DNA of 64,000 bases. Source: Anaerolineae bacterium (GTDB taxonomy: Bacteria > Chloroflexota > Anaerolineae > Aggregatilineales > Phototrophicaceae). How positions within the stretch are numbered: position 1 is the stretch's first letter; every line of letters begins with the position of its first letter. The position numbers and the translations under genes were made by a program. Shown piece after piece: positions 6,515 to 34,627 of this stretch. The stretch covers positions 62,001 through 126,000 of the forward strand of contig JALHNB010000012.1 in assembly GCA_022843745.1 (NCBI GenBank), written 5' to 3'. The notes under the pieces were generated by a model that saw only the letters and a program-made list of their open reading frames with translations, did not search any database and was not told the origin of the DNA.

Positions 6515-8476
6515 ATGAATCACCCACTACCGAACGATATTTCCCGCCGTCGGCTTTTCCCCGCCTCGGTTGCCAATGTCACCCTGACGGATGGTTTCTG
6601 GTTGCCCAAATATCAGAATTTCCGTAGTGTCACGATCAACGACGTTTTTGACAAGTTTGAGCGTGACGACGCTTTTGCAAATTTTGATCGGGTTGCGCAG
6701 GGTATGACCGGAGAACATCATGGCTTACCCTGGTTCGACGGACTTATTTTTGAGACGATCCGGGCAGCCTCGGATTTCCTGGCTGTCAATCCCGATGCGG
6801 CGCTGGATGCCCGTCTGGATGGATATATCGAGCGTATTGCCGCCGCCCAGTCTGTTGACTTGAACGGCTATCTGAATACGTTTGTTTCGCTGATGCGGCC
6901 TGACCAGCGTTGGGGCGCTCTGGGCAGCGACCAATTGTGGACGCACGAAGAATATGACGCTGGCTGTCTGGTCGAGGCAGGTGTTCATCATTATCTGGCG
7001 ACTGGCAAAACGAGTTTGCTGAAATTAGCGGTTCGTTTCGCGAATTTTATGTGCGAATATATTGGCCCAGCCCCCAAACACAACGTTGTGCCTTCACACT
7101 CTCTCGCGGAAGAAGCCTTTATCAAGCTGTATCGTTTGCTGCGCGATACCCCCGGCCTTGCCAATCAACTTGATTTTCAGCACGACCCGATCCAATTTCT
7201 GAAGCTGGTTGAATTCTGGATGGAGAATCGTGGCAATCATACGGATCGCGTCAGCTTTGAGGAATATGCCCAGGATCACTGCTGTGTATTTGACCAACCG
7301 GAAGCGGTAGGACATGCGGTACGCGGGACGCTGCTCTACACCGGGTTGGCGACGCTGGCGGCAGAGGTGGGCGAGGAAAAATATTTCGAAACGTCCCGGC
7401 GGCTGTGGGAAGATGTCGTCGAACGGAAAATGTTCATCACGGGTGGTGTCGGCCCCATCAAAGAGTATGAAGGGTTCGGCTATGGGTACTACCTGCCCAA
7501 CAGCGGCTATATCGAAACTTGCGCCGGGGTTGGTCTGGGCTTTTGGGCAAGTCAGATGAATCAGGCTTTTGGCAGTGCCGAATACATGGACGTTTATGAG
7601 CGCGTGATTTATAACAACGTGCTGGCAGGTATTTCGCTGGATGGAACGCACTATTCCTACGAAAACCCGTTGCAGAATCACGGCGCTTTCCACCGTTGGG
7701 AATGGCACCGCTGCCCATGCTGCCCACCGATGCTGTTGAAGCTTTTTTCCGAAATGCCGAGCCTGATCTTCGCGCATAATGCGAAAGACCTCTATGTTAA
7801 CCTGTACATTGGAAGCAGTGGGAAAATTTCACTCCCAGCCGGAGAAGTGGAACTGTCCCTTGAGACGCAATATCCCTGGGACGGTAAAATCAAAATCACG
7901 TTGGATCATTTAAAGCCGCGAGAATTTGGTTTGCATCTGCGTATCCCGGCGTGGTGTAAAAATTATCACTATCGGGTTAACGGCGAGGCTCAGGATCAAG
8001 GACAAGTCGAAAATTGTTACGTCGTTTTAACGCGCCAGTGGCAAACGGGCGATGTCATCGAACTGGAACTGGATATGCCTGTTCAGCGCATCGTTGGGCA
8101 TCCGTTTTCCGGCGCAATCCGTGAGCGTGTCGCGATCCAGCGCGGGCCGGTGATTTACTGTTTGGAGGGTGTCGATAACCCGACAGGCCGTGACCCCTTA
8201 TTGCCAGCACACGCGAATTTCCAGGTTGAGTATCGAAAAGATTTCCTGGGCGGAGTCGTTGCGATCACCACTGAGGACGACGGTGGAAACCCCATCACGG
8301 CAATCCCCTATTTCGCGTGGGATAATCGCCCAGCTACGAGCGCTGAACAGGACTGGTTGGTCGTGTGGTTGCGGCAGGAAAATTGGTTCTCTTTACGGCA
8401 GCCATTGGATGCAAATAACCGCCAGGACTGGGAAAATGTGTTATATCAACCATTGGGTAGCCCTCAACAGGCATAG
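6515..8476 (+). CDS. Glycoside hydrolase family 127, beta-L-arabinofuranosidase type
   Basis: The 653-residue protein has an (alpha/alpha)6 barrel followed by beta-sandwich modules. In the characterised Bifidobacterium enzyme (HypBA1) a zinc-bound Cys acts as nucleophile together with a Glu and two further Cys. Matching residues are visible: E334-T-C336 and the C400-P-C402-C403 block. Expected role: release of beta-L-arabinofuranose from plant glycoproteins or arabinans. There is no signal peptide, so it is probably cytoplasmic and works on imported oligosaccharides. I start at ATG 6515 (AGGAG 11 bases upstream). The response-regulator gene begins 12 bp after its stop, so the two are probably co-transcribed. 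GH127 also contains other activities, so the exact substrate is open. Confidence 0.87.
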   Translation: MNHPLPNDISRRRLFPASVANVTLTDGFWLPKYQNFRSVTINDVFDKFERDDAFANFDRVAQGMTGEHHGLPWFDGLIFETIRAASDFLAVNPDAALDARLDGYIERIAAAQSVDLNGYLNTFVSLMRPDQRWGALGSDQLWTHEEYDAGCLVEAGVHHYLATGKTSLLKLAVRFANFMCEYIGPAPKHNVVPSHSLAEEAFIKLYRLLRDTPGLANQLDFQHDPIQFLKLVEFWMENRGNHTDRVSFEEYAQDHCCVFDQPEAVGHAVRGTLLYTGLATLAAEVGEEKYFETSRRLWEDVVERKMFITGGVGPIKEYEGFGYGYYLPNSGYIETCAGVGLGFWASQMNQAFGSAEYMDVYERVIYNNVLAGISLDGTHYSYENPLQNHGAFHRWEWHRCPCCPPMLLKLFSEMPSLIFAHNAKDLYVNLYIGSSGKISLPAGEVELSLETQYPWDGKIKITLDHLKPREFGLHLRIPAWCKNYHYRVNGEAQDQGQVENCYVVLTRQWQTGDVIELELDMPVQRIVGHPFSGAIRERVAIQRGPVIYCLEGVDNPTGRDPLLPAHANFQVEYRKDFLGGVVAITTEDDGGNPITAIPYFAWDNRPATSAEQDWLVVWLRQENWFSLRQPLDANNRQDWENVLYQPLGSPQQA

Positions 8477-8488
8477 AAAGTTTAAATA

Positions 8489-9136
8489 ATGACCGACTCG
8501 ATTCGCATCCTCGTTGCTGACGATCACCCGGTTGTCCGCGATGGCCTTGTCGCCATTCTGGGTACGCAGCCGGATTTCAGCGTGATAGGGGAGGCGGGGA
8601 CAGGTGTGGAAACCGTTCAGCGCGTGATCGCCCTGCGGCCTGATGTGCTGCTGCTCGATCTGGAAATGCCGAATGTAGACGGCGTGGGTGTCCTCAAGCA
8701 GCTTCGTCAGACGGATGTGCCGACGCGGGTTGTTGTGTTCACGGCCTTCGACACTGATGAGCGTATTCTGGACGCGGTACAGGCGGGTGCGCAGGGCTAT
8801 CTGCTCAAGGGAGCGCCGCGCGAAGAATTATTCAATGCCGTGCGCGTCGTCCACAGCGGCGGTTCGCTGTTGCAGCCGATTGTTGCCTCGAAATTGCTGC
8901 GACAGGTGAGCCGCGATCAGGTGAAAGAAGCCAACGCCGATGCCTTGACCGAGCGCGAGATGGAAGTTTTGCTGCTGATGGCGCAGGGCTTGCAAAATAA
9001 AGAGATCGCCGCCAAGCTGGTCATCAGCGAACGCACCGTCAAATTTCACGTCAGCTCGATTCTCGCCAAATTGGGCGCTGGCAACCGCACCGAAGCCGTC
9101 AAAATCGCCGCGCATCGTGGAATCGTCGATTTGTAA
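8489..9136 (+). CDS. NarL/FixJ-family response regulator
   Basis: The 215-residue transcription factor has a REC domain (acidic pair D11-D12, phospho-acceptor D57 in L-L-L-D-L-E-M-P, K near 107) and a C-terminal LuxR-type helix-turn-helix (about 150-210, L-T-E-R-E-M-E-V-L to R-T-V-K-F-H-V). NarL-type regulators pair with HisKA_3 kinases, and the only such kinase in the window is at 4455. It follows the GH127 gene by 12 bp, so arabinose-sugar metabolism may be among its targets; that is inference from position. Confidence 0.9.
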   Translation: MTDSIRILVADDHPVVRDGLVAILGTQPDFSVIGEAGTGVETVQRVIALRPDVLLLDLEMPNVDGVGVLKQLRQTDVPTRVVVFTAFDTDERILDAVQAGAQGYLLKGAPREELFNAVRVVHSGGSLLQPIVASKLLRQVSRDQVKEANADALTEREMEVLLLMAQGLQNKEIAAKLVISERTVKFHVSSILAKLGAGNRTEAVKIAAHRGIVDL

Positions 9137-9240: not shown

Positions 9241-9987
9241 ATGAAACGCATAAGTCTTATTTTTATTGTTCTGCTGGTATTGATTCAGCCCGCGCTGGCG
9301 ACGGATTTTCAACGCTATACTGTACCCCTCAGCGGCGTGGTCAACGAAGCGCTGACTCAAGGTGATGCGGACGGCAGCGGGCAAGGCGATTTCCTTTTTA
9401 ACACCTCGAATAACCAGATTTGCTACGAAATTCAGGTTGCCAATATCGACCTGCCAGCGACGGCGGCACAGATTCGGCGCGGCACGGACGATGTGACTGG
9501 CGACAGCGTGATCCCGATTACGCCGCCGGATGCCAGTGGCTATATGAAGGACTGCATCACGCCGTCAGCAGCGCTGTTTACAGAAATCGCCGATAATCCT
9601 GGCAGCTTCTACCTCAACATCGAAAATCGCGAATTTCCATCCGGGGCGATGCGTGGGCAGCTTTCGCGCTTCGCCTTTAACGACACCCGCCTGTCCACGT
9701 CGATGATCTGGGCGCTGTATGCCAACGCGGACGGTATTGAAGTGCTGGACGCGCAGGGGCAGCTCCTTTTGAATACAACTGTGCGCGAAATCCAGCGCGT
9801 TGCGGCCAAACCCGCCGAGGCGACTCTCATCGAAACGGCCAGCGGAGTCTCGCTCTATCGCCTGTCGTCGGGCGAGTTTCAGGTCAATATTGGCCCGGAT
9901 GCCGAGGGTAAGATCGAAGTCCACATTTTCAACCGCTTGCCGACTCGTTTGGCGTATCGGCGCGATTTTTCGACGGTTGGTTCATAA
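9241..9987 (+). CDS. Secreted CHRD-domain protein
   Basis: The 248-residue exported protein has a signal peptide (SLIFIVLLVLIQPALA) and a CHRD domain at about 20-145: repeated Y-T-V-P-L-S-G strands, I-x-Y-x-I-x-V-A-N-I, F-Y-L-N-I-x-N, and the closing F-P-S-G-A-M-R-G-Q-L. CHRD domains occur in chordin and many bacterial surface proteins and have no firm biochemical role. The last 100 residues are beta-rich and unassigned. I chose ATG 9241, with GGAG nine bases upstream. Confidence 0.8.
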   Translation: MKRISLIFIVLLVLIQPALATDFQRYTVPLSGVVNEALTQGDADGSGQGDFLFNTSNNQICYEIQVANIDLPATAAQIRRGTDDVTGDSVIPITPPDASGYMKDCITPSAALFTEIADNPGSFYLNIENREFPSGAMRGQLSRFAFNDTRLSTSMIWALYANADGIEVLDAQGQLLLNTTVREIQRVAAKPAEATLIETASGVSLYRLSSGEFQVNIGPDAEGKIEVHIFNRLPTRLAYRRDFSTVGS

Positions 9988-9994
9988 ATAACCT

Positions 9995-10026
9995 GCGTAG
10001 GGGCGATTCGCCGAGTCGCCCCTGCA
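9995..10026. repeat. Dispersed intergenic hairpin repeat, copy 3
   Basis: GTAGGGGCGA and TCGCCCCTGC arms flank a short loop just after the CHRD gene. It is the most symmetric copy of the family seen here, and with few Ts after it, it is not a classic terminator. Confidence 0.55.
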
Positions 10027-10128
10027 CTGTACCTTCGTACAGGCTAAAATCTCGTTCATTTGTACATTTCCTCCCTGAACTGCCGCCCGATGGAGTATCA
10101 TAAGTTTTATGCGATAGTCAGAATATAT

Positions 10129-10173
10129 AAAAGCTGAACGCTGATTGCTGAACCCTGAACGCTATCAGCTAAT
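10129..10173. repeat. GCTGA-rich intergenic repeat, copy A
   Basis: The pentamer GCTGA or CTGAA recurs at roughly 7-9 bp intervals and ends in ATCAGCTAATT. A similar array lies at 12984-13036. It sits just upstream of the Rieske gene, so its role could be regulatory or simply repeat expansion. Confidence 0.4.
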
Positions 10174-10193
10174 TTTTTAAGGAGTGCTGAAAA

Positions 10194-11936
10194 ATGGTTG
10201 TTAAAACAGATCATCTCGTCCATGTCGCCTCATTAGCCGACCTGAAAGTCACTAACTGCCTCACCGTACAGGCCGAGCGCCATACGATTGTGCTGTTCGC
10301 GTATGGCGACAATGTCTATGCCGTCGATAACCGCTGCCCGCATATGGGCTTTCCGCTGGATAAAGGGAGCGTCAAGGATGGCATTCTGACCTGCCATTGG
10401 CATCATGCCCGTTTTGACCTCGCCAGCGGTGGCACATTCGACCAATGGGCCGACGATGTGCGCGATTTCCCGGTAGAAGTCCGTGATGGTGAAATCTGGG
10501 TTGATCTGGTGCAGCGCCATGATCCGCGTGAACAGCAGCGGGATCGTTTGCAGGTCGGCCTGGAACGTGATATTTCGCTGGTCATCGCTAAAGCCGTTAT
10601 TTTATTGATGGACAACGGCGGTGATCCAGTTGAGCCGTTCCGCATCGGTCTGGAATTTGGCTCACGTTACCGTGATACCGGCTGGGGGCAGGGCTTGACC
10701 ATGCACACCTGCTTCATGAACATGCTGCCTGCGCTGGATGCCGATGATCGCCCACGCGCCATGTTTCATGGCTTATCTGCCGTCGCGCGGGATACCGGAG
10801 GGAATCCGCCGCGTTTTGGTGTGCGTCCGCTGCCGACTCAGGATGCTGATATTCCCACGCTCAAGCGCTGGTTGCGCCAATTTATCGAAGTGCGTGACAG
10901 CGAAGGCGCGGAACGCTGCGTGATTTCGGCGCTGCGGGCTGGCGCGACTCCGCAGCAAATGGCCGATATGTTATTCGCCTCCGTGACCGATCATCGCTAC
11001 ATCCAGGTCGGACACCCCGCCGATTTCACCAACAAAGCGTTTGAGGCGCTCGATCTTGCCGGATGGGAATATGCCGAGGGGGTGCTCGCCAGTCTGGTGA
11101 TGAATTATGCCAATGCCAGCCGCATGGAAGAATCAAATTCCTGGCGCAATCCAATTGATCTGATCGCGATTCTCGACAACGTGTTCGTGGAGCTGCCAGC
11201 CGTATTAGAGCATGGTTCGCGGCGGCGTGGTGCCTGGGAAGGGCGTGACGCGATCATCGCGACATTATTGAGCGACGACCCGCAGGCGATTGCCGATGCA
11301 CTGCTGAATGCACTCCGTGATGGCTGCTCGATGGAACAGCTTGCCTCGGCGGTGGCTTATGCGGCGGCGCTGCGGATCGCGCAATTCCACACCAGCAACG
11401 AGTTTGGCGATTGGGATACGGCACTGCATACCTTTACTTTCGCCAACGCTATTCATCAGGGCTTGCGACGTGCGCCTTCGCCGGAACTGCTGCGCGGGGT
11501 ATTTGATGCAGCCATGAGCGTCTATTTAGACCGATTTTTGAATATTCCGGCGGCACGGATTCCCCAGCCCAACGGCGCGGTCAAAGACCCGGCGGCGCTG
11601 CTGACCGAATTACCCGCACTGCTTAACCAACAGCAGCAGGTCAATGAAGCGGGTAGGTTGGTCGCCCAATATTTGTATAACGGCGGCGCTGCGGATCGTT
11701 TGCTGGCGGCGTTGGGCAGTGCTCTCCTGCGTGAAGATCGCGATTTCCACACGATCCAGTCGGTGGAGGCGGCATTCCGGCAGTACGACATGCTGCGCGG
11801 CACGGAAGCCGGGATTCATGCGTTGATCGGCGCGGCACGTTATCTGGCGGCTCATTCGCCGACGGTACGTGCGCAGGGGCAAACCTACCAGATCGCCCGC
11901 CGTCTGCATCGCGGCGAACTGCTGTTTGAGGAATAG
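10194..11936 (+). CDS. Rieske [2Fe-2S] protein with long uncharacterised helical C-terminal domain
   Basis: Residues about 8-105 form a Rieske ferredoxin domain: C48-P-H50 and C67-H-W-H70 are the cluster ligands, followed by F-D-L-x-S-G-G. The remaining 470 residues are predominantly helical, with scattered His and acidic residues (D-H-R-Y-I-Q-V-G-H, F-H-T-S-N-E, D-R-D-F-H-T). I do not recognise this part; a distant link to questin-oxidase-like helical proteins is possible but unproven. The arrangement suggests a soluble oxidoreductase in which the Rieske centre feeds electrons to the second domain. The start is secure: AGGAG sits nine bases before the ATG. It is flanked by repeat-rich gaps and has no operon partners. 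Confidence 0.78.
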   Translation: MVVKTDHLVHVASLADLKVTNCLTVQAERHTIVLFAYGDNVYAVDNRCPHMGFPLDKGSVKDGILTCHWHHARFDLASGGTFDQWADDVRDFPVEVRDGEIWVDLVQRHDPREQQRDRLQVGLERDISLVIAKAVILLMDNGGDPVEPFRIGLEFGSRYRDTGWGQGLTMHTCFMNMLPALDADDRPRAMFHGLSAVARDTGGNPPRFGVRPLPTQDADIPTLKRWLRQFIEVRDSEGAERCVISALRAGATPQQMADMLFASVTDHRYIQVGHPADFTNKAFEALDLAGWEYAEGVLASLVMNYANASRMEESNSWRNPIDLIAILDNVFVELPAVLEHGSRRRGAWEGRDAIIATLLSDDPQAIADALLNALRDGCSMEQLASAVAYAAALRIAQFHTSNEFGDWDTALHTFTFANAIHQGLRRAPSPELLRGVFDAAMSVYLDRFLNIPAARIPQPNGAVKDPAALLTELPALLNQQQQVNEAGRLVAQYLYNGGAADRLLAALGSALLREDRDFHTIQSVEAAFRQYDMLRGTEAGIHALIGAARYLAAHSPTVRAQGQTYQIARRLHRGELLFEE

Positions 11937-11983
11937 TACAGCCGGGGGTTTCGCCAGAAATAAAGTGTGAAACCCCCCACTTC

Positions 11984-12286
11984 CTAGATCGCAATCGTCA
12001 ATTGCACGGTAACGCTGTCGCCAGTCTCAATTTTCTCTTTCTTTCGAACATCCGCCTTGATGGGCAGTACATATGAGCCAGATTTTGAGTCAGGAAAAAT
12101 GGATGTGCTCCAGGCCGTTTTTCCTATCTTCGCGCTTACTTTGACGGATCCCCATCCTTGTCGTTTGCCGCCCGTGATAAATTTGATCTGATCACCATCT
12201 TCTTCTGGCAAGGTGATAAAAAACCACGCGCCTTTTCCTTCATACATCCATAATTCACCTGAAAAAGTAATGCTTAGATCATTCAT
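11984..12286 (-). CDS. DUF1905 domain protein
   Basis: The 100-residue protein matches the DUF1905 small beta-barrel family: F-S-G-E-L-W, G-A-W-F-F-I-T-L-P, G-W-G-S-V-K-V and the closing L-P-I-K-A-x-V-R-K. Function is unknown; related proteins are often fused to or beside YdeI-type domains. The start codon overlaps the stop of a 12-codon upstream reading frame that arose by duplication of the start region (see the finding at 12271). Confidence 0.8.
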   Translation of the reverse strand: MNDLSITFSGELWMYEGKGAWFFITLPEEDGDQIKFITGGKRQGWGSVKVSAKIGKTAWSTSIFPDSKSGSYVLPIKADVRKKEKIETGDSVTVQLTIAI

Positions 12287-12332
12287 GCGGATCGCTCATT
12301 AATGCTCAGATCATTCATAATGCTCGCTCATT
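12271..12332 (-). repeat. Tandem duplication of the DUF1905 start region, creating an upstream mini-ORF
   Basis: Two adjacent ~30-bp copies read, on the minus strand, A-ATGAGCGA then 6 bases then ATGAATGATCT. The upper copy gives a frame of 11 residues (M-N-D-L-S-I-N-E-R-S-A, 12318 to 12283). Its TGA overlaps the ATG of the main gene (12286-12284) as ATGA, the layout of translational coupling. Confidence 0.6.
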
Positions 12333-12612
12333 GTGGTGATATTATTTGACTTTTACTTTCAGTATATCCGATGAGGCGATACCGTCGGAATATCATTTGC
12401 AAGATGTACAGGGATGTAACGCCAAATGACCGTACAACTCAGTTCTTCATAAATACACGCTCAAAATGCGTTTTTGTAGGGGCGCATGGCTGTGCGTCCT
12501 TTTGAAAAAACACATTGTATAAGAGTTTTGTTACATCGCGTCCAAAATTGATACCTTTGCCACACCACTCACGTATAGAGATGTATAGATACGGAAGCTA
12601 AAGGAAATGGCA
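12287..12612. other. Intergenic region with repeat, no gene seen
   Basis: The divergent gap between the DUF1905 gene and the small membrane protein holds the duplicated start region and hairpin repeat copy 4. I see no other coding potential. Confidence 0.55.
12474..12501. repeat. Dispersed intergenic hairpin repeat, copy 4
   Basis: TTGTAGGGGCGCATGGC pairs imperfectly with the TGTGCGTCC that follows. The left arm is nearly identical to copy 2 at 2971. Confidence 0.5.
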
Positions 12613-12894
12613 ATGGACAACAGTTGGAAATATGGTTATCGCTCGCATCGTCACTCGCCCTGGATGGGGTTCGTTTTCGTGTTTCTGATGATTATGCTGT
12701 TCACAAAGGGCTTCGCGCTCATTATGCCGCTGCTGCTGATCGGCCTGGGCTTCATGATGCTCAAAGGCCGAGGCCATAACTGGAACGGATTTTGTGACGG
12801 TGATATGGGCGAGAAATTCAAGCGTAAAAATGACGAGGAAAAATCGAAGCGCACCTATCGAGATGACGATACCGAGCCGATTGAGTACATCTAA
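12613..12894 (+). CDS. Small membrane protein
   Basis: The 93-residue protein has a His/Tyr-rich start, two close hydrophobic helices (about 18-33 and 36-51), then a strongly charged cytoplasmic tail with K-R-K-N-D-E-E-K. I do not recognise a family. ATG 12613 is preferred over ATG 12607, because the AAGGA box is only one base from the first but seven from the second. It is followed by a large inverted repeat between convergent genes. Confidence 0.6.
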   Translation: MDNSWKYGYRSHRHSPWMGFVFVFLMIMLFTKGFALIMPLLLIGLGFMMLKGRGHNWNGFCDGDMGEKFKRKNDEEKSKRTYRDDDTEPIEYI

Positions 12895-12900
12895 CGGAGA

Positions 12901-13036
12901 AGCTCGTCAGCATTTCAGCCCGTTAGCTTGTCAGTAAATGCACGTGATGGGTGAGATGTGGTGTCGAATGAGGATTTCGCATTAAAAGCTGATTAGCTGA
13001 AATGCTGAGACGCTGACGAGCTAATCGGCTGACTAG
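12901..13036. repeat. Imperfect inverted repeat with GCTGA array, between convergent genes
   Basis: AGCTCGTCAGCATTTCAGC at 12901-12919 is the reverse complement of 12996-13022, apart from an eight-base insertion in the right arm that duplicates GCTGA. The right half (12984-13036) is a GCTGA/AGCTAA array like the one at 10129. Its place between convergent stops suits a bidirectional transcription end, but there is no T run. Confidence 0.5.
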
Positions 13037-13434
13037 CTAAAAAGCATCGGGGCGATAAGTAGAACGCTCCAAACCGCTGCGCCTGCTGTCATACATACAA
13101 AGAGGCGGCGTGGCGGTACGCGCAGGGTCAGGCCGACAGCCGTCCCGATGAGCGCACCTGTGAGCAGGGGAGCCACGAGCGCGAGGCCGACAACGCCGTA
13201 GCGGTTAATAATGCGGCTGATCGGGCGGTCAGGATTGAGTGTAAATTTTTTCAACACACGATCACGCAGCGGCGCACCGACCACCACCAACAGCACAACA
13301 CTGAACGCATACCCGGCAACCAGGGTGAACATGAGCGTGAAGGGGTCTAAACCCAATGTCATCCCGGCGATGCCTGCTGTCCACAGCGAGAAAACTGCCA
13401 GAATGAAGATGCCGAGAAGTTCAATAATGGTCAT
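13033..13434 (-). CDS. Small multidrug-export-like membrane protein
   Basis: The 133-residue protein has about four hydrophobic helices, with a conserved-looking central loop (R-P-I-S-R-I-I-N-R-Y-G-V-V-G-L-A-L-V-A-P-L) and G-A-L-I-G-T-A. This resembles the putative small multidrug export family (Pfam Sm_multidrug_ex). Transport activity in the family is weakly supported, so treat the name as a label. The start has AAAGG five to six bases upstream. Confidence 0.65.
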   Translation of the reverse strand: MTIIELLGIFILAVFSLWTAGIAGMTLGLDPFTLMFTLVAGYAFSVVLLVVVGAPLRDRVLKKFTLNPDRPISRIINRYGVVGLALVAPLLTGALIGTAVGLTLRVPPRRLFVCMTAGAAVWSVLLIAPMLFS

Positions 13435-18428: not shown

Positions 18429-19319
18429 TCAGAGGAGTTCCAGCACCATCTCGAAGCGGCGGAACGCTTCCAGATAGCCTTTTTCCTGGAAGATCGGCCA
18501 GGCGGGGCAGTCGGCGGGCAGGTTCTCGATTTTGGTGTCCTGTTTGGCGTACTGCTGGTGCAGCGTATAGAGCAGTGCGCGTGTTATCAACTCAGCATTT
18601 TCTGAAGGGGCATAAAAAACGACATGCTCCATCTGAAAAGCTTTGAGTTGAAAGATAATCCAGCCGGATTCGCCATTTTCTAAGGTGATCTCAAACCCTT
18701 TAAGATTGCCCACTTTCAGGATTGACGGGGTTTCCTCAATCCAGCTTGGTGCAAAGAGGCGCTGCTGAAGAAGCGGCTCAATTTCCTGGCTGTCCAGGGG
18801 GCGGACTGAAATATCCTCAAGCTGCTGTGTGGTCGTCATACCGGGAGGTCGGCGAATAATCAGCAGTTCGCGCGTTGCATGAAAGCCGAACTTCATAAAC
18901 AGATTGTAGGCCGGGTCGTTGCCTTTAATGACCTCAAGCTGAACTTGCCGGACATTGCGCTGACGGGCATGGTACAGCAGCGATTCCATCAGGAATTGCC
19001 CGGTTTTGCGGCCTCTGCTTGCCGGGATCACACCCAGGCGGGTAATCCAGGCACGTTCATCGCGAACACCGAGCATTCCAATGCCTGTAATCTCGTCGCT
19101 GGTATTCAGCGATACAGCCGAGGCTTCCAGGTCAATATCATAATTGTGAACGTATTCTTCCATCCGGCGGGCGTTCATCGGCATCGGCACAATGTAATCG
19201 ACGCGGCTCTGGTTATAGATTTCAGCCAACTCTTGAAAATTGTAGTGACTGGCCGGAATCGCAATCTGGTCGGAAAGATTTTCGAGTTTAAAATGGGGGA
19301 GGGCGCTGTAGCTAGCCAA
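18429..19319 (-). CDS. GNAT family N-acetyltransferase, two-domain
   Basis: This 296-residue protein has a GNAT core at about 30-160: the L-G-V-I-P-A-S-R-G-R-K-T-G-Q-F-L acetyl-CoA loop, then Q-L-E-V-I-K-G-N-D-P-A-Y-N-L-F-M-K-F-G-F. The C-terminal 130 residues are a second, poorly conserved alpha/beta unit. It lies about 20 bp downstream of a REC-only gene in the same direction, so it may belong to the receiver-rich operon from 22287. Acceptor unknown. Confidence 0.78.
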   Translation of the reverse strand: MASYSALPHFKLENLSDQIAIPASHYNFQELAEIYNQSRVDYIVPMPMNARRMEEYVHNYDIDLEASAVSLNTSDEITGIGMLGVRDERAWITRLGVIPASRGRKTGQFLMESLLYHARQRNVRQVQLEVIKGNDPAYNLFMKFGFHATRELLIIRRPPGMTTTQQLEDISVRPLDSQEIEPLLQQRLFAPSWIEETPSILKVGNLKGFEITLENGESGWIIFQLKAFQMEHVVFYAPSENAELITRALLYTLHQQYAKQDTKIENLPADCPAWPIFQEKGYLEAFRRFEMVLELL

Positions 19320-19339: not shown

Positions 19340-19720
19340 TTATGGGGTGGCTTTCGCGTTTTCCAGATAATCTGCGATCTGAGTGGCAAATGTGCGCGTA
19401 TCAATGGGTTTGATAATCACACCATCGCAGCCATACGCTTCTGCCATCTGATAAGCGGTTTCCTGCGGCCATGCGGTAAAGGCGATAACCGGCACACCGT
19501 TGAGCGTTGATTCCTGACGTAACAATGCAACGACAGTCTGCCCATCCATATCCGGCAGACCGAGATCAACTAAAATGAGGTCTGGGCGTGTGCCTGCAAT
19601 TGTCGTCAACCCCATTTCTCCATCTTCGGCCAGTGTAACCTCATGCCCAGCGTGACGCAAGAGTTTAGCCGCCAGACGAGCATTTGATAGATTATCTTCA
19701 ATGACGACAATATGACTCAT
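19340..19720 (-). CDS. Stand-alone response-regulator receiver (CheY/DivK-like)
   Basis: This 126-residue single REC domain has the acidic pair E8-D9, phospho-acceptor D52 (I-L-V-D-L-G-L-P-D-M-D-G), a T in F-T-A-W and the K in I-I-K-P-I-D. No output domain, so it would act through protein contacts or as a phosphotransfer sink. It follows another REC-only gene by 12 bp and the PLP-REC-REC fusion beyond it. No histidine kinase is in this cluster. Confidence 0.85.
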   Translation of the reverse strand: MSHIVVIEDNLSNARLAAKLLRHAGHEVTLAEDGEMGLTTIAGTRPDLILVDLGLPDMDGQTVVALLRQESTLNGVPVIAFTAWPQETAYQMAEAYGCDGVIIKPIDTRTFATQIADYLENAKATP

Positions 19721-19732
19721 AATCCGTTTTCC

Positions 19733-20125
19733 CTAAACTCGCGTATTGATTGTCTGGGCAAGAGAGAGAAAATGCGCCACCGCATTTAAAAGCTCGTTTT
19801 TGGTGACAGGTTTGGCAAGGTAGCCATCAAAGCCTGCCGAGATAAAGCGTTCGCGATCCCCATGCATGGCGTTGGCAGTCAGGGCGATCACAGGAATATG
19901 TGCTAACTGCGGTGAAGCTTTTAAGCGAGCAGTTGCTTCCAGCCCATCAATATCGGGCAGATTGATGTCCATTAGAATCAAGGCTGGCATTTCACGGGCT
20001 GCCGTTGCCACGCCGGACAGACCATTAACAGCCTCAATCATTTCATAGCCGCCTACGCGCAGCATCTTACCCACTAACCGCATGTTTTGCGGATTGTCTT
20101 CGACGTAGAGAATTTTGATGGACAT
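19733..20125 (-). CDS. Stand-alone response-regulator receiver (DivK-like)
   Basis: The 130-residue REC protein has E9-D10, phospho-acceptor D53 (L-I-L-M-D-I-N-L-P-D-I-D-G), L-T-A-N-A-M and K in Y-L-A-K-P-V-T. The I-L-Y-V-E-D-N-P-Q-N start and the A-L-T-A-N-A-M block are typical of the REC domains found in hybrid kinases and DivK. It lies 38 bp downstream of the PLP-REC-REC fusion gene and has its own AGGA ribosome binding site. Confidence 0.86.
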   Translation of the reverse strand: MSIKILYVEDNPQNMRLVGKMLRVGGYEMIEAVNGLSGVATAAREMPALILMDINLPDIDGLEATARLKASPQLAHIPVIALTANAMHGDRERFISAGFDGYLAKPVTKNELLNAVAHFLSLAQTINTRV

Positions 20126-20163
20126 TGTTTTTCCTGGATTGATATTAAGGATGATTTCAGGTG

Positions 20164-22287
20164 TTATGCCAATACATCCTTAATTATGTGGGGAATCCGA
20201 TTCCGGTCAAGTGGAGATTTTGTCAAGATTGCATGAATTTTTGAGTCTAGCAACCTTAACTCTTCAGATGTTAGCTCTTTAGCAGACATAACGATAATGG
20301 GAATCGCGGCTAATTCGGAATCGGCCTTTAATTTTTCCACGAGAGTGAAACCATCCATATCTGGCAGCATCAGGTCGAGCAGGATCATTTCAGGTCGGTG
20401 TTCGTAGACTGCTTTCAGGCCATCGCGTCCCGAAGTCGCCTCAATGATGTGATAATCGCCTGCTGTCTGGAGCAAACGGCGCGTCAGACGCAAGTCCCGC
20501 AAATTATCGTCAATGACGACAATGGTTGGCAGCCCATCATTAAGAATTTCCTCGACGGCTATTTCAGATTGCTTGGAGGGACGTGGCAGGGTAGGGGGAA
20601 TCATGGAATCATCGGATAGATGTCCGAGTGTGCGCACGACATGATCGACAAGCTGACGGGTATCGAAACCGCCTTTTGTCCAAACGGATTCAGAATTTGC
20701 GGCCAGAAATTCGCGATCCGGCTCGGTTAATGTCTTTGCTGAGACGACCACCACCGGGATATTGGCTGTCTCAGGGTTACTTTTCAAGTGTTCGATCAGC
20801 ATCAGCCCATCCATTTCCGGCATCGTCAAATCTGTGACGATCAAATCCGGCTTGCGCTCCTGAACTGCCTGAAGTGCTTCTGCGCCACTTTGGGCCTCGA
20901 AAACGCGGTAGCTTTTATAGCGTTGCAGCAAGCGGCGAATCAAGCGACGGTCATTGTGGGTATCATCAACTATCAGAATCGTCGTCACCTGCTCATCGAG
21001 GTGTGCCAGCGCCGCGCTCAGGCCGTCCTCCTGTCGATCATTGACCGTCGAAACCTCGCCCGCCTCGCTGATTTTGAGATTGAAGACATACTGGTCACCC
21101 AGAATATGGCTTTCGGCAGGGAAGGTATGGCCGGAACAATTCAGCACAACGCTTTCGCCTTCACGAATCGTACCGTTGTTGAGCATTTTTTCCAGTCCGG
21201 CGAAGGCAACGGCTGTCGCAGGTTCAACGGATAATCCAGCTTTGCTGGCGACTTTGCGCATCGCCTGAAATGTCTCGCCGTCCTCGATGGCGATCATCGA
21301 CCCGCCATTGCTGAGGACTGCCGCGCGAAGCTGGACATAGCTGAAGCCGGGATCACCCGTCGCCAGCACGGTAATCAGCGTTTTGGGGATAACCGGGTCA
21401 GCCGTCTCTTTGCCCGCGTTCATGGCTTTGACCATCGGTGCGCAGCCCGCCGACTGAACGATGCCGAGCTTGGGCATCTTGTCGATTAAGCCCATTTCCA
21501 GCAGTTCGTTGAAGCCTTTCCAGACCCCCAACGGGCCAATGCCGCCGCTGACCGCCTGGATATACCAGTCCGGGCTGGCGAAACGTCCATCAGCATAGCG
21601 CTCTAAACCCAATTGTTCGGCAATTTCGAACGCCAGCGTTTTCATACTTTCTTTACCGGGGACAGCCCGTGCGCCTTTATCCAGGTGGATGCCTTTGCGC
21701 CGCGCGAATTCGGCAGCGACCTGCTTGGTTTCATCGTATGTGCCGGAAACTTTGACGACTTCCGCGCCATAGAGTGCCGCTTCGCGCATTTTTTCTGCCG
21801 GGACGAGGCTGGTCAGAAACAGCCATAACTTGATGCCTGCACGTGCGCAATAAGCAGCATATGCCGCACCCGCGTTGCCTGTCGAGGCCAGGACGCATTC
21901 GGTGATGCCAATGCGCTTCATGGCGGTGACAGCCAATGCCGCTTGACGATCTTTAAATGAACTCGTCGGCCCCTGACGCTCATCCTTGATATAGATTCCT
22001 TCATGGTGAAAAAGACGCTCGTACTGATACAGCCGCACCAGTGACGTATAGCCTTCGCCGAGCGAAATTTCCGGGTCAGGCTCACTCATCGGCAGCAGTT
22101 CGGCGTAGCGCCAGAGCGTGTGAGGCCGATAGAGAAGGGCAGACGGCCATAATTTCGCGACTTTTTCGTAGTCATAACGTGCATCCACCCAACCAGAGCC
22201 GCAGCGTGTGCAGGTGACGATCTGGTGATCGGCCTCCATCTCATGATGGCATTCCAGGCAAACGACTTTGTTGAAATACGATGACAT
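20164..22287 (-). CDS. Threonine-synthase-like PLP enzyme fused to two response-regulator receiver domains
   Basis: This 707-residue protein has an unusual layout. Residues 1-30 hold a zinc-ribbon (C10-x2-C13 and C26-x2-C29) as in many threonine synthases. Residues about 60-415 are a fold-type II PLP enzyme: Schiff-base lysine K112 (S-S-F-K-D-R), phosphate loop S-T-G-N-A-G (135-140), S-G-G-I-G-P-L-G (248-255) and C-S-G-H. Typical free-standing homologues end near here. Two complete REC domains follow at about 436-556 (D441, D442, D486, K538) and about 588-705 (D593, D594, D638, K690). Homologues make threonine from O-phosphohomoserine or carry out related beta/gamma eliminations. The RECs suggest phosphorylation control or a new output role; both ideas are inference. 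REC-only genes follow at once. AAGGA precedes the ATG. Confidence 0.85.
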   Translation of the reverse strand: MSSYFNKVVCLECHHEMEADHQIVTCTRCGSGWVDARYDYEKVAKLWPSALLYRPHTLWRYAELLPMSEPDPEISLGEGYTSLVRLYQYERLFHHEGIYIKDERQGPTSSFKDRQAALAVTAMKRIGITECVLASTGNAGAAYAAYCARAGIKLWLFLTSLVPAEKMREAALYGAEVVKVSGTYDETKQVAAEFARRKGIHLDKGARAVPGKESMKTLAFEIAEQLGLERYADGRFASPDWYIQAVSGGIGPLGVWKGFNELLEMGLIDKMPKLGIVQSAGCAPMVKAMNAGKETADPVIPKTLITVLATGDPGFSYVQLRAAVLSNGGSMIAIEDGETFQAMRKVASKAGLSVEPATAVAFAGLEKMLNNGTIREGESVVLNCSGHTFPAESHILGDQYVFNLKISEAGEVSTVNDRQEDGLSAALAHLDEQVTTILIVDDTHNDRRLIRRLLQRYKSYRVFEAQSGAEALQAVQERKPDLIVTDLTMPEMDGLMLIEHLKSNPETANIPVVVVSAKTLTEPDREFLAANSESVWTKGGFDTRQLVDHVVRTLGHLSDDSMIPPTLPRPSKQSEIAVEEILNDGLPTIVVIDDNLRDLRLTRRLLQTAGDYHIIEATSGRDGLKAVYEHRPEMILLDLMLPDMDGFTLVEKLKADSELAAIPIIVMSAKELTSEELRLLDSKIHAILTKSPLDRNRIPHIIKDVLA

Positions 22288-22448
22288 ACTTGATTATTCC
22301 TTAACTGTTGGAATGTGATGATTGGGGGGTTTGTGCAATATTAATACAATACCGCTGATATGAAGGCGAAAGAATTTAGATTTGTGAGAAAAGGGGAGGA
22401 CAAAAGCGCATTCGAGTCACGCAATGAGCACGAGACGATTTCTGGAAA

Positions 22449-23684
22449 TTAAGTCTCCTGATTTTTCGCCCGCGTCAATATGAACGCCGCCAGCGCAAAA
22501 ACGACTGCGCCCGACCAATACGGCGCACCCCGCAGCACATGGTCATAAATGATGCCTGCCCACAGCGGCCCGACAATAGTCATTAGGCTGGCAAGCGCGG
22601 TTGTCACGCCCATAAGCGTACCGAGTTCGTGCGGCGAGACACGATTAGAAGTCAGCGTTGTCAGTGTCGAAAAAGTGAAGGTGCTGACAATGATATTCGC
22701 CACCGAAAGGGGATAGATAATCCAGAAGGCAGGCGTGAAAAAGATGGCAATGGCAATGATCGCTTGCGCCAACAGACTCGCGATCCCAACGGCTTTTTCC
22801 CCGTAACGTGACACGGTGCGCTGCACAAAAAGGGCCTGCACGATAATCACGGCGATTCCCGATAACACCAGCAGCAGTCCGGTTTGCCAGGGCTGTGCGT
22901 CAAATTTCTCGATCACAAATAAAGTCTGAATCGCGTTCACGCCATTGAAGGCAAAATTGAACAGGCAGAGGACGACCAGAAGATTGCCGAGACGCGGCTT
23001 GCGTGCCATGCTGCCGATTGACCCAAATGGGCTTATATCACGCATGTGAATAGGGGCGGTTTCGCGTTGTTCTTTGGGCAGCGATTCCGGCAGAAAGAAG
23101 AATCCTAATGTCAGGCCTAATAAGGAAAACGCCGCTGCGATAAAAGCTGGGGCTTCCAGGCTGATCTGGCCGGTTGCCGCACCCAACGCTGGCCCCAGAA
23201 CCAACCCCACACCCCAGGCAACACCGATCAGGCCAAAATTTTTGGCTCGTTCTTCGGGGCTGGAAATATCAGCAATATATGCAGACGCGGTAGACAAATT
23301 GGCAGCGGTGATTCCGTCGATGAGGCGGGAGACGAGCAGTATCCACAACGCGCCGCCGATGCCAAAAATCACATAACCGACAGCCGAACCAAAAATGCTG
23401 ATGAGCAGCACAGGCCGCCGCCCATAGCGATCACCGAGTTTGCCCATCAGCGGCGCGGCAAAAAACTGACCTGCCGCATAGATGACCGTCACCATCGTCA
23501 CCATCAACGCATCACTGCTGTATCGCTTGACAATGAACGCCGTTACCGGATAGAGAACGGTGATGCCGATAATGTCCATCAGCATGATAAAAAAGATGAC
23601 GGCAAGGGCGCGTTTTTTCGCGGCTGGCGACTCCATTAATGCGGATAGGGTAGGGCGAGTTTCTGTATGCGGTGAGGTTTCCAT
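22449..23684 (-). CDS. MFS transporter, TetA/multidrug-resistance type
   Basis: The 411-residue protein has about twelve hydrophobic helices and the MFS loop 2-3 signature G-K-L-G-D-R-Y-G-R-R-P-V-L (near residue 82), plus the motif C-like G-V-A-W-G-V-G-L-V-L-G-P-A-L-G of drug/proton antiporters. It most resembles TetA/MdtG-type exporters; the substrate is unknown. The tyrosine recombinase gene ends 22 bp upstream in the same orientation, so read-through transcription is possible. Confidence 0.82.
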   Translation of the reverse strand: METSPHTETRPTLSALMESPAAKKRALAVIFFIMLMDIIGITVLYPVTAFIVKRYSSDALMVTMVTVIYAAGQFFAAPLMGKLGDRYGRRPVLLISIFGSAVGYVIFGIGGALWILLVSRLIDGITAANLSTASAYIADISSPEERAKNFGLIGVAWGVGLVLGPALGAATGQISLEAPAFIAAAFSLLGLTLGFFFLPESLPKEQRETAPIHMRDISPFGSIGSMARKPRLGNLLVVLCLFNFAFNGVNAIQTLFVIEKFDAQPWQTGLLLVLSGIAVIIVQALFVQRTVSRYGEKAVGIASLLAQAIIAIAIFFTPAFWIIYPLSVANIIVSTFTFSTLTTLTSNRVSPHELGTLMGVTTALASLMTIVGPLWAGIIYDHVLRGAPYWSGAVVFALAAFILTRAKNQET

Positions 23685-23705
23685 GATCGCTGCCCGTGAT
23701 TTTGC

Positions 23706-24665
23706 TTAATAAGGAAAATGTAGCTTTGTCGCCGCGCGTTTTTTCGTTTCTTCCGGCCTGCGATCATAACGCCGGGTCGTATCGACGCTGGCATGTCCGG
23801 CGATGTTGGCGACGGTGGCAATATCGACTCCACGCTCCAACATCTCACCGACGAACGTGCGCCGGAAATCGTGCGGCGAAAAATCCGGCACGCCCGATGC
23901 AATCGCCCGTCGGCGCAGCATATCGTAAATACTTTGGGCGTTCATCCGGCGTTCGGTGATCTTTCCACTTTTGAGAACGGGTACAAATATCGGTGTGCGC
24001 CCGCCGCTGACCGCTAACCAATCCATCAAGGCTCGCAGCGCACCCCCCAGGACATAAACGGTTCGCTGTTTGCGGCCTTTCCCGGCTTTCACCATCAATT
24101 TGCCCGTGCCAGCCTCAAAATCCTCGCGATTCAGCGCCACTAATTCCGCCCGCCGCAGGCCGCAGGTATAGAGCAGGCCGATGATAGCTGCGTCACGTAC
24201 ACCGGATGCCGTTTTCGTGTCGGATTTGCAGATTTGCACCAGCGCCAGAATTTCTCCCTGAGAAAGTTCGCGTCCGGCGGGGAGCGTTTCGCCTTTGATG
24301 CTTTTGACATTGGCAGCGCGATGATAATCCTCAGCGCTCATATAGCCAAGCTGCCACGCTTCTTTCAAAACGCCGCGTACCGCCGAGAGTGTTCGGTTGG
24401 CAGTAGATGGGCTGTAAATTTCCGCCAACTTTGAACGCAGGGCGGCAGTGTGCATATAACGAAGCTGCGACCAATCGAGTAAAAAAATATCGACATCTTC
24501 CGACGCTTGTCCGGTCAACAGCATGGCGACACTGCGCAGCGCTTGCGCCATGACTCGGCGTGATCGCGGTGATGTGAGTCCCGCCAGATAGACGGCAACC
24601 GGATTCTCTCGCACGGGCAGCGGCGTGGTTAACGAAAATGATGGTGTTGGAGAATTTTCGGACAT
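23706..24665 (-). CDS. Tyrosine recombinase / integrase
   Basis: The 319-residue site-specific recombinase has an N-terminal SAM-like DNA-binding domain (about 20-120) and a catalytic domain (about 130-305). All expected residues are present: R171 (C-G-L-R-R-A-E-L), a lysine in the G-K-G-R-K hairpin (K199), H265-x-x-R268 (S-P-H-D-F-R-R-T), H291 (I-A-G-H-A-S) and nucleophile Y300. The gene is therefore probably active. Its 5' end faces an inverted-repeat core about 345 bp away (25008-25035), like an integrase beside its attachment site. XerC/D chromosome-dimer resolution is a less likely role. AGGA lies eight bases before the ATG. Confidence 0.87.
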   Translation of the reverse strand: MSENSPTPSFSLTTPLPVRENPVAVYLAGLTSPRSRRVMAQALRSVAMLLTGQASEDVDIFLLDWSQLRYMHTAALRSKLAEIYSPSTANRTLSAVRGVLKEAWQLGYMSAEDYHRAANVKSIKGETLPAGRELSQGEILALVQICKSDTKTASGVRDAAIIGLLYTCGLRRAELVALNREDFEAGTGKLMVKAGKGRKQRTVYVLGGALRALMDWLAVSGGRTPIFVPVLKSGKITERRMNAQSIYDMLRRRAIASGVPDFSPHDFRRTFVGEMLERGVDIATVANIAGHASVDTTRRYDRRPEETKKRAATKLHFPY

Positions 24666-31376: not shown

Positions 31377-33149
31377 ATGAATCCACAATCACTAATCGCC
31401 TTCACACCGTTTCTTGCGGTGTTGTATATCGTCTACGCGCTCATCCAGGCGCTGCGCAAAAAGCGTCAGGGCATCGGCGCAGCCCTGCTGGCGTTTATCG
31501 CGCTGGTTGCTCCGGTAGCGGCTTTAATCGTTAATCAGGATATGGCTGTTCAATTACAGCTATCCAATTTTCTGATGATTAACGCCATCATTGTTTTTGT
31601 CGGGAGCATCAACGTTCTGATGCTTGAGCGCCGAAATCCGGTTAAGGACAGCAGTCGCTCATATGGTATGTTGGGCGTCGGCCTGGGCGTTTTATTAGCT
31701 GTCGAAATTTTGGCATATCCCACACTGGCATCCACACTGAATACAAGCAATACGTCCATCCCAGCGGGATTTGCTCGAAGCGATGGCTCGACACTCCAGA
31801 ATGTTGTTCAGACAACTTCATTGACAACCGATGGCTTGACGGCCTTTGCAGAGGTTTTGACTGCCCAGACCGGATTAACGCTCGACGAAATCACGACCCA
31901 ATTGCAATCGGGCAGTACAGTCGTTGATTTGGTCGCGCAGAACAATGGCGATTTAGATGCGGTTATTGCCGCCACCGCCAGCACGCTCGACGAATTGGCG
32001 GGACAGGACGGAATGCCCGCGCAAATGATTTCCCAACTAGGCGATGACACGACGACTATCGCGACGCAATATGTACAGGGTGAACTTGCCGATGAGCGGG
32101 CGCAGCAATTTCTGACCATGATGCTGCTCGGCGGCGAAATGCCCTCGCTCCCCCAGGGTGGGGGAAATCCCCCCGCTGGCGGCAGTGACACATTTCCGGA
32201 TAGTAATGCAGCACCTGAAAGTGACCCCAATTCAAACGCCAATGAGAGTCCGGCGAATAATCAGAGTGGGCAAGAGCCAAACGTTCAACCCGCTGACGCT
32301 CCCGCAGCGCCTACTGATGGCTCGACGGCCTTTGCAGAGGTTTTGACTGCCCAGACGGGATTAACGATTGACGAAATCACGACCCAATTGCAATCGGGCA
32401 GTACAGTCGTTGATTTGGTCGCGCAGAATAATGGGGATTTAGATGCGGTTATTGCCGCCACCGCTAGCACGCTCGACGAATTGGCGGGACAGGACGGAAT
32501 GCCCGCGCAAATGATTTCCCAACTGGGCGATGACACGACGACTATCGCGACGCAATATGTGCAGGGTGAACTTGCCGATGAGCGGGCGCAGCAATTTCTG
32601 ACTATGATGCTGCTCGGCGGCGAAATGCCCTTGTTCCCCCAGGGTGGGGGAAATCCCCCCGCTGGTGGTGATGGTGCGCTCCCACCTGCTAATAATGGAC
32701 CTGAAACTGCCGCAGATCAAAATGCCAATGATGGTCAATCGGGCAGCCAGCCGGACAATCAGAATGTTGCACAAGAACCTCCCCTTCAGCCGACTGAAAG
32801 CCCAGCCACACCAACAGAAACGGTGATTCGTCCAACGGTTATCAGCTTCCCATCAGCGACGCCAACCCCTCTCACTGCCGAAGTGAGTGTAGACGAATCT
32901 AGTGCAGCCGAAGCAGCCGCGACCTGTACGGTGACAGCCCTGTATAACCTGAACTTTCGCAACCAGCCGAACACCACCGACAGCACGGTTTACCTGTCCA
33001 TTCCATCGGGTACGTCCGTTGTGGCTAATGGACGAACTGCTGACGGTTGGTACAGCGTGACATATGACGGACAAGCGGGCTGGGTAAGTGGTGAGTATGT
33101 CAACACGAATGGCACTTGCGACAACATTGCCACTGTCGATGCTGGTTAA
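31377..33149 (+). CDS. Membrane protein with duplicated extracytoplasmic module and C-terminal SH3 domain
   Basis: The 590-residue protein has three to four helices in the first 115 residues, then a module starting D-G-x-T-A-F-A-E-V-L-T-A-Q-T-G. It is about 115 residues long and present twice in near-identical copies (around 152-268 and 314-430). Pro/Asn/Gln-rich linkers follow, then a bacterial SH3 domain (L-N-F-R-N-Q-P-N-T-T near 525, ending G-W-V-S-G-E-Y). It is 12 bp downstream of the second permease, so it is part of the efflux operon, possibly a wall-binding or substrate-handling part. Family unknown. Confidence 0.78.
   Translation: MNPQSLIAFTPFLAVLYIVYALIQALRKKRQGIGAALLAFIALVAPVAALIVNQDMAVQLQLSNFLMINAIIVFVGSINVLMLERRNPVKDSSRSYGMLGVGLGVLLAVEILAYPTLASTLNTSNTSIPAGFARSDGSTLQNVVQTTSLTTDGLTAFAEVLTAQTGLTLDEITTQLQSGSTVVDLVAQNNGDLDAVIAATASTLDELAGQDGMPAQMISQLGDDTTTIATQYVQGELADERAQQFLTMMLLGGEMPSLPQGGGNPPAGGSDTFPDSNAAPESDPNSNANESPANNQSGQEPNVQPADAPAAPTDGSTAFAEVLTAQTGLTIDEITTQLQSGSTVVDLVAQNNGDLDAVIAATASTLDELAGQDGMPAQMISQLGDDTTTIATQYVQGELADERAQQFLTMMLLGGEMPLFPQGGGNPPAGGDGALPPANNGPETAADQNANDGQSGSQPDNQNVAQEPPLQPTESPATPTETVIRPTVISFPSATPTPLTAEVSVDESSAAEAAATCTVTALYNLNFRNQPNTTDSTVYLSIPSGTSVVANGRTADGWYSVTYDGQAGWVSGEYVNTNGTCDNIATVDAG
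31830..32183 (+). repeat. Intragenic direct repeat, unit 1
   Basis: About 353 bp, nearly identical to 32316-32669 at an offset of 486 bp (a multiple of three, so the frame is kept). Only scattered single-base changes separate the units, which points to a recent duplication or gene conversion. Confidence 0.85.
32316..32669 (+). repeat. Intragenic direct repeat, unit 2
   Basis: This is the second copy of the unit at 31830. Differences I can see include CTCGACG to ATTGACG early and AATGGCGAT to AATGGGGAT. The linker between units is unique and codes for an Asn/Pro/Ser-rich stretch. Confidence 0.85.
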
Positions 33150-33187
33150 TTTGAGTAGGAATGAATTTCGATGCTAGGAGATTTCAG

Positions 33188-33598
33188 ATGGCAAAAACAA
33201 TTCTCATCGTGGATGACAGTAACCACTTAGCCTACATGCTGAATCGCTATCTGAGTGAGCAAGGTTTTCAGGTCATGAGCGCTCGAAACGGGCGCGAGGC
33301 GTTAGCAACTCTTGAATATCAAACGCCTGATCTGATCCTTCTCGACCTCCTGATGCCAGAAATGGACGGCTTCGAATTTATGCGCTTGCTGCGAAGGGAT
33401 CATAATCTGCCGATCATCATCCTCAGCGCAAAAGATTCGGAGGCCGATAAAGTATTAGCACTGAAATCCGGTGCCGATGATTATGTGACCAAGCCCTTCA
33501 GTATGCGCGAACTGATCGCGCGGATTCGGGCAACGCTGCGACGCGCGGATCAGAAAGGCTTGTCACTTTCTCAGAAACCAATGAAGAGTGACCTTTAG
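33188..33598 (+). CDS. Receiver-only response regulator, OmpR-like without DNA-binding domain
   Basis: The 136-residue protein has REC features D9-D10 and phospho-acceptor D53 (L-I-L-L-D-L-L-M-P-E-M-D-G). Its G-A-D-D-Y-V-T-K-P-F-S-M-R-E-L end and the helix I-R-A-T-L-R-R are the usual bridge to an OmpR winged helix, but it stops 13 residues later. It may be a truncated OmpR regulator or a true single-domain REC. I chose ATG 33188 (AGGAG seven bases upstream) over ATG 33161. It closes the efflux operon and precedes the pseudogene remnant. Confidence 0.8.
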   Translation: MAKTILIVDDSNHLAYMLNRYLSEQGFQVMSARNGREALATLEYQTPDLILLDLLMPEMDGFEFMRLLRRDHNLPIIILSAKDSEADKVLALKSGADDYVTKPFSMRELIARIRATLRRADQKGLSLSQKPMKSDL

Positions 33599-33643
33599 CC
33601 TGTACAGGCGTAAGCTCTAAATCATACGGATTTACGGGAGCTA

Positions 33644-33874
33644 GTGGACAAAGATGTTATTCGCGTGGCTGAAGCGAATCTGGCAAACGCGCATATTGCT
33701 TATAGCAACACTACCAATACCGTTAGTGATGCGGATATTCAGCAGGCGCAACTTCATTACGATCAAGCCCAGCATAATCTGGAAGAGAAACAGAGTCAGC
33801 AAACGGGATGGGTCAAAGGCGATTATCTGACTCTCGGCCCAGACTGTGCTGATCTCCCGATAAGGGCTGAATAA
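33644..33874 (+). pseudogene. Chimeric remnant: adaptor coiled coil joined to SH3 end
   Basis: The 76-residue frame begins with a stretch like the coiled coil of the adaptor at 25276 (D-V-I-R-V-A-E-A-N-L-A-N-A versus D-D-I-R-I-A-Q-A-N-I-V-S-A; I-Q-Q-A-Q-L-H-Y-D-Q-A versus I-D-N-A-Q-L-K-Y-D-Q-A). It ends like an SH3 domain (G-W-V-K-G-D-Y versus G-W-V-S-G-E-Y in the 31377 gene). The two pieces meet after E-K-Q-S-Q-Q-T. There is no signal peptide, and the GGGAG box is only three bases from its GTG. It is best read as the scar of a collapsed second efflux operon, though a short expressed protein is not excluded. Confidence 0.65.
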
Positions 33875-34625: not shown

Positions 34626-34627
34626 AT

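Follow-up and report, generated by a model that had tools for sequence, protein, structure and literature searches.

A threonine-synthase-like PLP enzyme fused to receiver domains: a candidate two-component system with an enzyme output in Chloroflexota

Surveys mention response regulators that act through a covalently attached metabolic enzyme; to our knowledge, little bench work has been done on these. Receivers on standard metabolic enzymes are known from both bacteria and archaea (PMC5847659); section 14 of that paper, which deals with enzymatic outputs, names no PLP enzyme. In the literature consulted, PMC1183210 included, a fusion of a PLP-dependent enzyme domain (PALP) with receiver domains (REC) was not found described, and response-regulator surveys may contain a mention. 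Here we describe such a fusion in the genome of an Anaerolineae bacterium, based on a stretch of 64,000 nucleotides (the window).

The locus contains a 707-aa open reading frame encoding a PALP-REC-REC protein (20164..22287), followed by frames for two stand-alone receivers of 130 aa (19733..20125) and 126 aa (19340..19720), all on the minus strand. An initial annotation had described a PLP enzyme and two receivers in a single frame, with two REC-only genes in the same direction at distances of 38 and 12 bp. The open reading frames bear this out, as does Pfam, which detects PALP plus two stretches of Response_reg in the long frame and Response_reg in each of the short ones; both stand-alone receivers keep the acidic pair, Asp, Thr and Lys. 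The three frames are as annotated, and the group is longer: 20 bp beyond the second receiver lies a fourth gene, encoding a GNAT acetyltransferase (18429..19319, minus strand; Pfam). At the 5' side of the enzyme gene a 161-bp gap is found (22288..22448, minus strand), which lacks the kinase gene usual in relatives. A separate transcription start for the enzyme gene is therefore likely, and the gap would act as its promoter.

Our preferred reading, to which we assign a probability of about 0.55, is a two-component system with an enzyme as output, in which phosphorylation gates a PLP enzyme that is active and has a substrate of its own. Phosphorylation control is suggested by the fused, intact receivers together with a linked kinase, and activity on another substrate by the intact, conserved active site combined with a changed substrate motif.

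All parts of the protein are encoded on the minus strand. The PALP domain, of fold type II (residues 74-386; 21130..22068), is recognised by Pfam with 206 bits. It is preceded by a zinc-ribbon-like segment (22201..22260), in which Cys10, Cys13, Cys26 and Cys29 would bind zinc, and followed by a linker with a short helix before the first receiver (residues 390-432; 20992..21120). REC1 (residues 437-549; 20641..20979) and REC2 (residues 589-700; 20188..20523) make up the C-terminal part; Response_reg scores 138.6 bits in total with 437-549 as the best stretch, and Pfam finds no DNA-binding domain in the 707-aa protein. Conservation was analysed in an alignment of 60 rows, 31 from the subfamily with two receivers (REC-REC) and 29 from a subfamily with one (PALP-REC). 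Invariant in all rows are the catalytic Lys112 (codon 21952-21954), the four cysteines, S135-T136-G137-N138, S247-G248-G249 and G251. The annotated phosphate loop at 135-140 exists as STGNAG, and it aligns with STGNTA (84-89) of the Thermus threonine synthase; it is SGGIG at 247-251 that aligns with GNAGN (187-191) of that enzyme. We take the loop holding the PLP phosphate to be the GNAGN-type stretch, hence 247-251 rather than 135-140.

Phosphorylation residues are also conserved in the receivers. D442, the phospho-acceptor Asp486 (codon 20830-20832), S/T516 and K538 of REC1 are kept in 60/60 rows, with Asp or Glu at position 441. K538 is followed by Gly in every row, where a canonical receiver has Pro after the conserved Lys. 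REC2 retains Asp638 (codon 20374-20376) in 29 of the 31 subfamily rows; of the other two, one carries Asn and one is gapped there. The gapped row is probably locus L134; its frame stops after REC1, but it was grouped with the REC-REC subfamily on account of its similarity. Every stand-alone receiver row printed keeps the acidic pair, Asp, Thr/Ser and Lys. K112, D486 and D638 are thus located where the initial annotation had placed them, and its proviso that the receiver aspartates might vary among relatives is contradicted by the counts. Nei-Gojobori dN/dS values for the PALP and REC parts of six pairs range from 0.013 to 0.114, with dS often high (in the pair L118/L141, what is labelled 'REC2' is a mis-assigned stretch of the single receiver). 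Judged by these sequence comparisons, the fusion is under purifying selection.

In whole-genome searches a match is present in 53 of 61 near genomes, a count that includes the source genome (E <= 1e-55), in 81 of 249 from a sample of the class (E <= 1e-75) and in 42 of 400 from a sample of the phylum (E <= 1e-70), seven of the latter outside the class; the three samples overlap. Among the matches listed for the phylum sample, all 57 places reach at least query residue 548, that is, through the first receiver. The search for the PALP-REC-REC layout that had been proposed with the initial annotation returned relatives that are fused as well, instead of separate genes. A chance fusion, frameshift or assembly error has a negligible probability as explanation, as the same joined frame is present in dozens of separate genomes, single-contig ones included.

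Proteins of the PALP-REC-REC subfamily measure approximately 700 aa and are 52-70% identical to the window protein (near genomes), those of the PALP-REC subfamily approximately 560 aa and 42-54% identical (near, class and phylum searches). The source genome has one copy per subfamily, the PALP-REC copy being on contig C10. A scan of named genomes, which detects close peptides only, kept 80 loci, two of which are full-length relatives. The 37 genomes behind 37 of these 80 loci show a receiver-reaching match in 6 of the 9 titled Chloroflexota or Anaerolineae (among which we count Leptolinea) and in 0 of the 28 others. None of 296 Actinomycetota genomes matched at E <= 1e-70 in a search run without positive control, and 37 plasmid records match, none across more than 80% of the query. 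A stand-alone enzyme, with the receiver absent from the match, is found in 4 of 194 genomes sampled from the phylum to which a Phormidium belongs (cyanobacteria), at 48-49% identity; three of these are complete and one is truncated by the contig end. In FastTree the fused proteins group with one another to the exclusion of the cyanobacterial rows, and the REC-REC group is one clade. In a quick IQ-TREE tree the fused proteins are not on one side of a branch, and the REC-REC group needs two changes. The receiver may have been acquired by a stand-alone enzyme or, alternatively, lost in the cyanobacteria.

Neighbourhoods were studied with a custom ORF caller and single-sequence phmmer queries in 60 loci, chosen non-randomly for long contigs and spread. 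The usual gene order in the REC-REC subfamily is kinase, PALP-REC-REC, REC, (REC), GNAT; in the other subfamily it is a hybrid kinase with one or two receivers, PALP-REC, REC-kinase and an EamA transporter. The next gene starts with a receiver in 27/31 REC-REC loci and 16/27 PALP-REC loci. A GNAT gene is present within the next four genes in 16/31 REC-REC against 0/27 PALP-REC loci, and EamA within four genes in 0/31 against 15/27. Two loci of another class, L180 and L183, have the order REC, GNAT, kinase, PALP-REC, REC.

Counting only loci that have an upstream gene, a histidine kinase is encoded directly upstream (same strand, within 300 bp) in 20 of 30 REC-REC loci (19 scripted, plus L175 on second look) and in 24 of 29 PALP-REC loci, against a crude background of 6 in 313 other genes of these loci. 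The remaining 10 of the 30 REC-REC loci, the window's included, lack an adjacent kinase, which counts against the preferred reading. In the window the slot used by the kinase in most relatives is occupied by genes for an MFS protein and a Xer-type recombinase; a classical OmpR-type regulator with histidine kinase, of ordinary type, lies roughly 12 kb off (33900-36061). A kinase-enzyme fusion considered for L175 (a 1695-aa frame) was rejected: a kinase frame at 9674-13342 stops shortly ahead of the enzyme, and the front part of the 1695-aa frame is therefore the kinase gene read out of frame. Six kinases were scanned with Pfam, five of them adjoining enzymes of relatives or the second copy and one from contig C117 of the source genome. 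All contain GAF, up to six stretches, and variously also PAS, HAMP or dCache domains.

The kinase on C117 (1756 aa; six GAF_2 stretches, PAS, HisKA and HATPase) is the source genome's best match to the kinase that adjoins the enzyme in L120, the closest relative, with 599.8 bits against 313.2 for the next place. When its core is compared with 56 other kinase cores (one duplicate included), the 13 nearest, 56-69% identical, all adjoin PALP-REC-REC. In a FastTree tree, read without branch supports, it likewise falls among the PALP-REC-REC-adjacent kinases; this tree included usable cores for 18 of the 19 scripted adjacent REC-REC kinases (L013 had none) and six cores from the many kinases of the source genome, the second-copy kinase among them. 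C117 itself measures 5.8 kb and extends for 158 bp beyond the stop of the kinase, with no PALP start in that part. Its tetranucleotide distance to the window is 0.194, compared to 0.117-0.222 for ten equal-sized window pieces, nine of which are below 0.194; there is a small chance that the contig is contamination of the assembly. A cognate kinase is probably present in the source genome, in another transcription unit. The earlier view of a system without a kinase of its own, fed by an orphan kinase, is not supported: most relatives have a kinase directly upstream, and such a kinase is found on C117.

As to the identity of the enzyme, Foldseek and VIA-align place the PLP part nearest to threonine synthases (Z 37.6-44.5). 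A genuine inducible threonine synthase under two-component control, serving as second ThrC for particular conditions, would fit this result. It would also fit the observation that 4 of 10 PALP-REC places narrowly pass the thrC cut-off (e.g. L118, 176.1 against 167.1), as do 3 of 3 complete cyanobacterial stand-alone enzymes; both counts speak against the preferred reading. In addition, a ThrC-like PALP shares the gene group at L174, L176 and L178. The window protein itself, on the other hand, falls short of the cut-off for all six listed threonine synthase models, with 145.6 bits for thrC (cut-off 167.1) and 266.5 bits for PRK08197 (cut-off 303) in NCBIfam. A higher-scoring thrC match above the cut-off is present in 12 of 12 genomes tested, which also disposes of the fusion enzyme as its host's best or only ThrC; the source genome has such matches on C16 (255 bits, thrC) and C8 (200.9 bits for thrC, 320.5 for PRK08197).

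Further differences concern the substrate motif. The ThrC stretch NSxNPxR (154-160 of the Thermus threonine synthase, TtTS) reads NSVNPHRLEGQKT in Thermus and DKGARAVPGKESMKT in the window protein. At the position of TtTS Arg160 all 64 rows (31 + 29 + 4 cyanobacterial) have Gly, Ala, Ser or Cys, and at that of Arg242 all 64 have Ala or Ser; we presume, from the Thermus structures, that both positions bind the substrate phosphate. Among 26 comparison PALPs, counted after dropping L210 (no usable frame), Arg160 is kept in 16 and missing in 10, the latter number weakening the argument for our reading. A single branch of the quick tree (SH-aLRT 100) separates the 64 rows from the rest; a further point against the preferred reading is that the tree program flagged a meeting of long branches between these rows and a comparison group. 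On sequence grounds, then, the enzyme is a paralogue of the threonine synthase family without the ThrC substrate motif and not the housekeeping threonine synthase, and an inducible ThrC is quite unlikely. Given the missing motif, threonine synthesis is not the process that would best fit as the one being gated. The earlier proposal that phosphorylation gates amino-acid metabolism therefore survives in part: the fusion is widespread with catalytic and acceptor residues kept, whereas threonine synthesis is a less likely target.

It might also be argued that the PALP unit now serves as a sensor or scaffold, in which binding of PLP and an amino acid tunes receiver phosphorylation or the interaction with the kinase, without net catalysis. 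The ties to a receiver throughout the phylum-sample matches listed are in line with this, as are the changed substrate motif and the presence of better ThrC candidates in the same genomes. However, the catalytic Lys, the Asn, the Gly loop and family-specific residues are invariant in 60/60 rows. Moreover, the stretches fetched around the cyanobacterial stand-alone enzymes contain no kinase or receiver match (E <= 1e-4), and such versions are signs of a working enzyme. We consider a sensor or scaffold unlikely.

In the proposed two-component system with enzyme output, a sensor histidine kinase with multiple GAF/PAS domains would phosphorylate the receiver or receivers fused to the PLP enzyme. 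The phosphorylated receiver would in turn alter the rate of the enzyme, which is presumably catalytically competent; O-phosphohomoserine would not be its substrate, or not the main one. Contacts within a dimer or oligomer are the probable route, because the linkers (approximately 25 to 45 residues) look flexible. In two AlphaFold models (pTM 0.61 and 0.69) most domains are confident internally and not relative to each other, and pLDDT is below 50 over linker residues 390-421 and 426-432. The structure modelling proposed earlier accordingly gave confident domains without a confident orientation of the receivers on the enzyme; no allosteric path is visible in the models, which counts against the preferred reading. 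On these models, flexible linkers suggest that control runs via contacts in a dimer or oligomer rather than via a rigid lever. The stand-alone receivers may draw on the same phosphoryl pool as sinks or connectors, and GNAT (or the EamA exporter in the other subfamily) would modify or export the product.

Overall, an environmental signal probably controls the enzyme directly rather than a gene promoter in many Chloroflexota. With the kinase, enzyme and receivers of a conserved family all identified, phosphorylation control of metabolism becomes approachable with three to four proteins. The family also marks a group of PLP enzymes that is matched by threonine synthase models and most likely has another function. 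A more speculative extension, which we regard as doubtful, is a metabolite-output circuit consisting of a sensor kinase, a phospho-gated PLP synthase of an amino-acid-derived compound, an acetyltransferase or exporter, and shared receivers. If true, a signal synthase would be encoded together with its own sensor and export, and the circuit would be kept in at least two Chloroflexota classes, with the stand-alone enzyme in some cyanobacteria.

Compared to known systems, the enzyme has the fold-type II PLP domain and catalytic Lys in common with threonine synthase (ThrC; TIGR00260, PRK08197; 1UIM, 2ZSJ, 6CGQ, 2C2B), and the N-terminal Cys segment with full-length PRK08197-type relatives. It differs from ThrC in its separate tree group, the lost substrate motif, the coexistence with a higher-scoring ThrC and the attached receivers. 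Cysteate synthase and the TS paralogues (TIGR03844; CapA2, 9K3C) are, like the fusion enzyme, PALP paralogues of ThrC. CapA2 of Alistipes ranks second by VIA-align (Z 41.9) and sixteenth by Foldseek, whereas the window protein remains far below the TIGR03844 cut-off (118.2 against 324.9 bits). MocR/PdxR regulators combine a DNA-binding domain with an aminotransferase of fold type I and thus also put a PLP enzyme fold to regulatory use; here a fold-type II enzyme and receivers are found instead. In layout the fusion resembles response regulators with enzymatic output, in which receivers with phosphorylation residues are likewise covalently joined to an enzyme. The fusion has the receiver residues, the enzyme on the same polypeptide and, at the loci of relatives though not in the window, the linkage to a kinase. 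It differs from that class in that its receivers are C-terminal, number one or two per chain and are accompanied by up to three separate receivers in the gene group. Fusions of receivers with enzymes are a known general class, and the PALP-REC fusion is a variant of it.

Directly upstream of PALP-REC-REC, the threonine-synthase-family PLP enzyme fused to two receivers, the place of the cognate kinase in most relatives is occupied by an MFS transporter and a XerC-like recombinase (22449-24665, minus strand), possibly as the outcome of an insertion or rearrangement. The transporter is similar to Tet-type efflux proteins, with scores below their cut-offs, and the recombinase also scores below its cut-off. 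On contig C117 of the same genome, which carries a kinase resembling those adjoining PALP-REC-REC in relatives, a GC-rich palindrome-like stretch, GGGGCGACCCGCCGGGTCACCCC, lies past the kinase stop (locus L164, 1-158). This stretch may be an interspersed repeat, which would account for the contig end.

Three other loci (L174, L176 and L178) show the order histidine kinase, PALP-REC(-REC), receiver and separate PALP, all in one direction. The separate PALP of L178 scores 577 bits with PRK08197, and the gene group in these loci may include a real threonine synthase.

Some other signalling genes in the window lie on the plus strand. A lone receiver frame (33161-33598) directly precedes a classical OmpR-type regulator and a HAMP histidine kinase (33161-36061 in total), and a LuxR-type response regulator gene follows 12 bp downstream of a GH127 beta-L-arabinofuranosidase gene (6488-9136 for the two together). 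A 590-aa protein with a C-terminal SH3_3 domain (31377-33149, plus strand) contains, by eye, an almost perfect internal duplication of approximately 100 residues.

Within the first receiver, REC1, K538-G539 (20671-20676) is Lys-Gly in all 60 aligned rows, whereas canonical receivers have Lys-Pro at this position.
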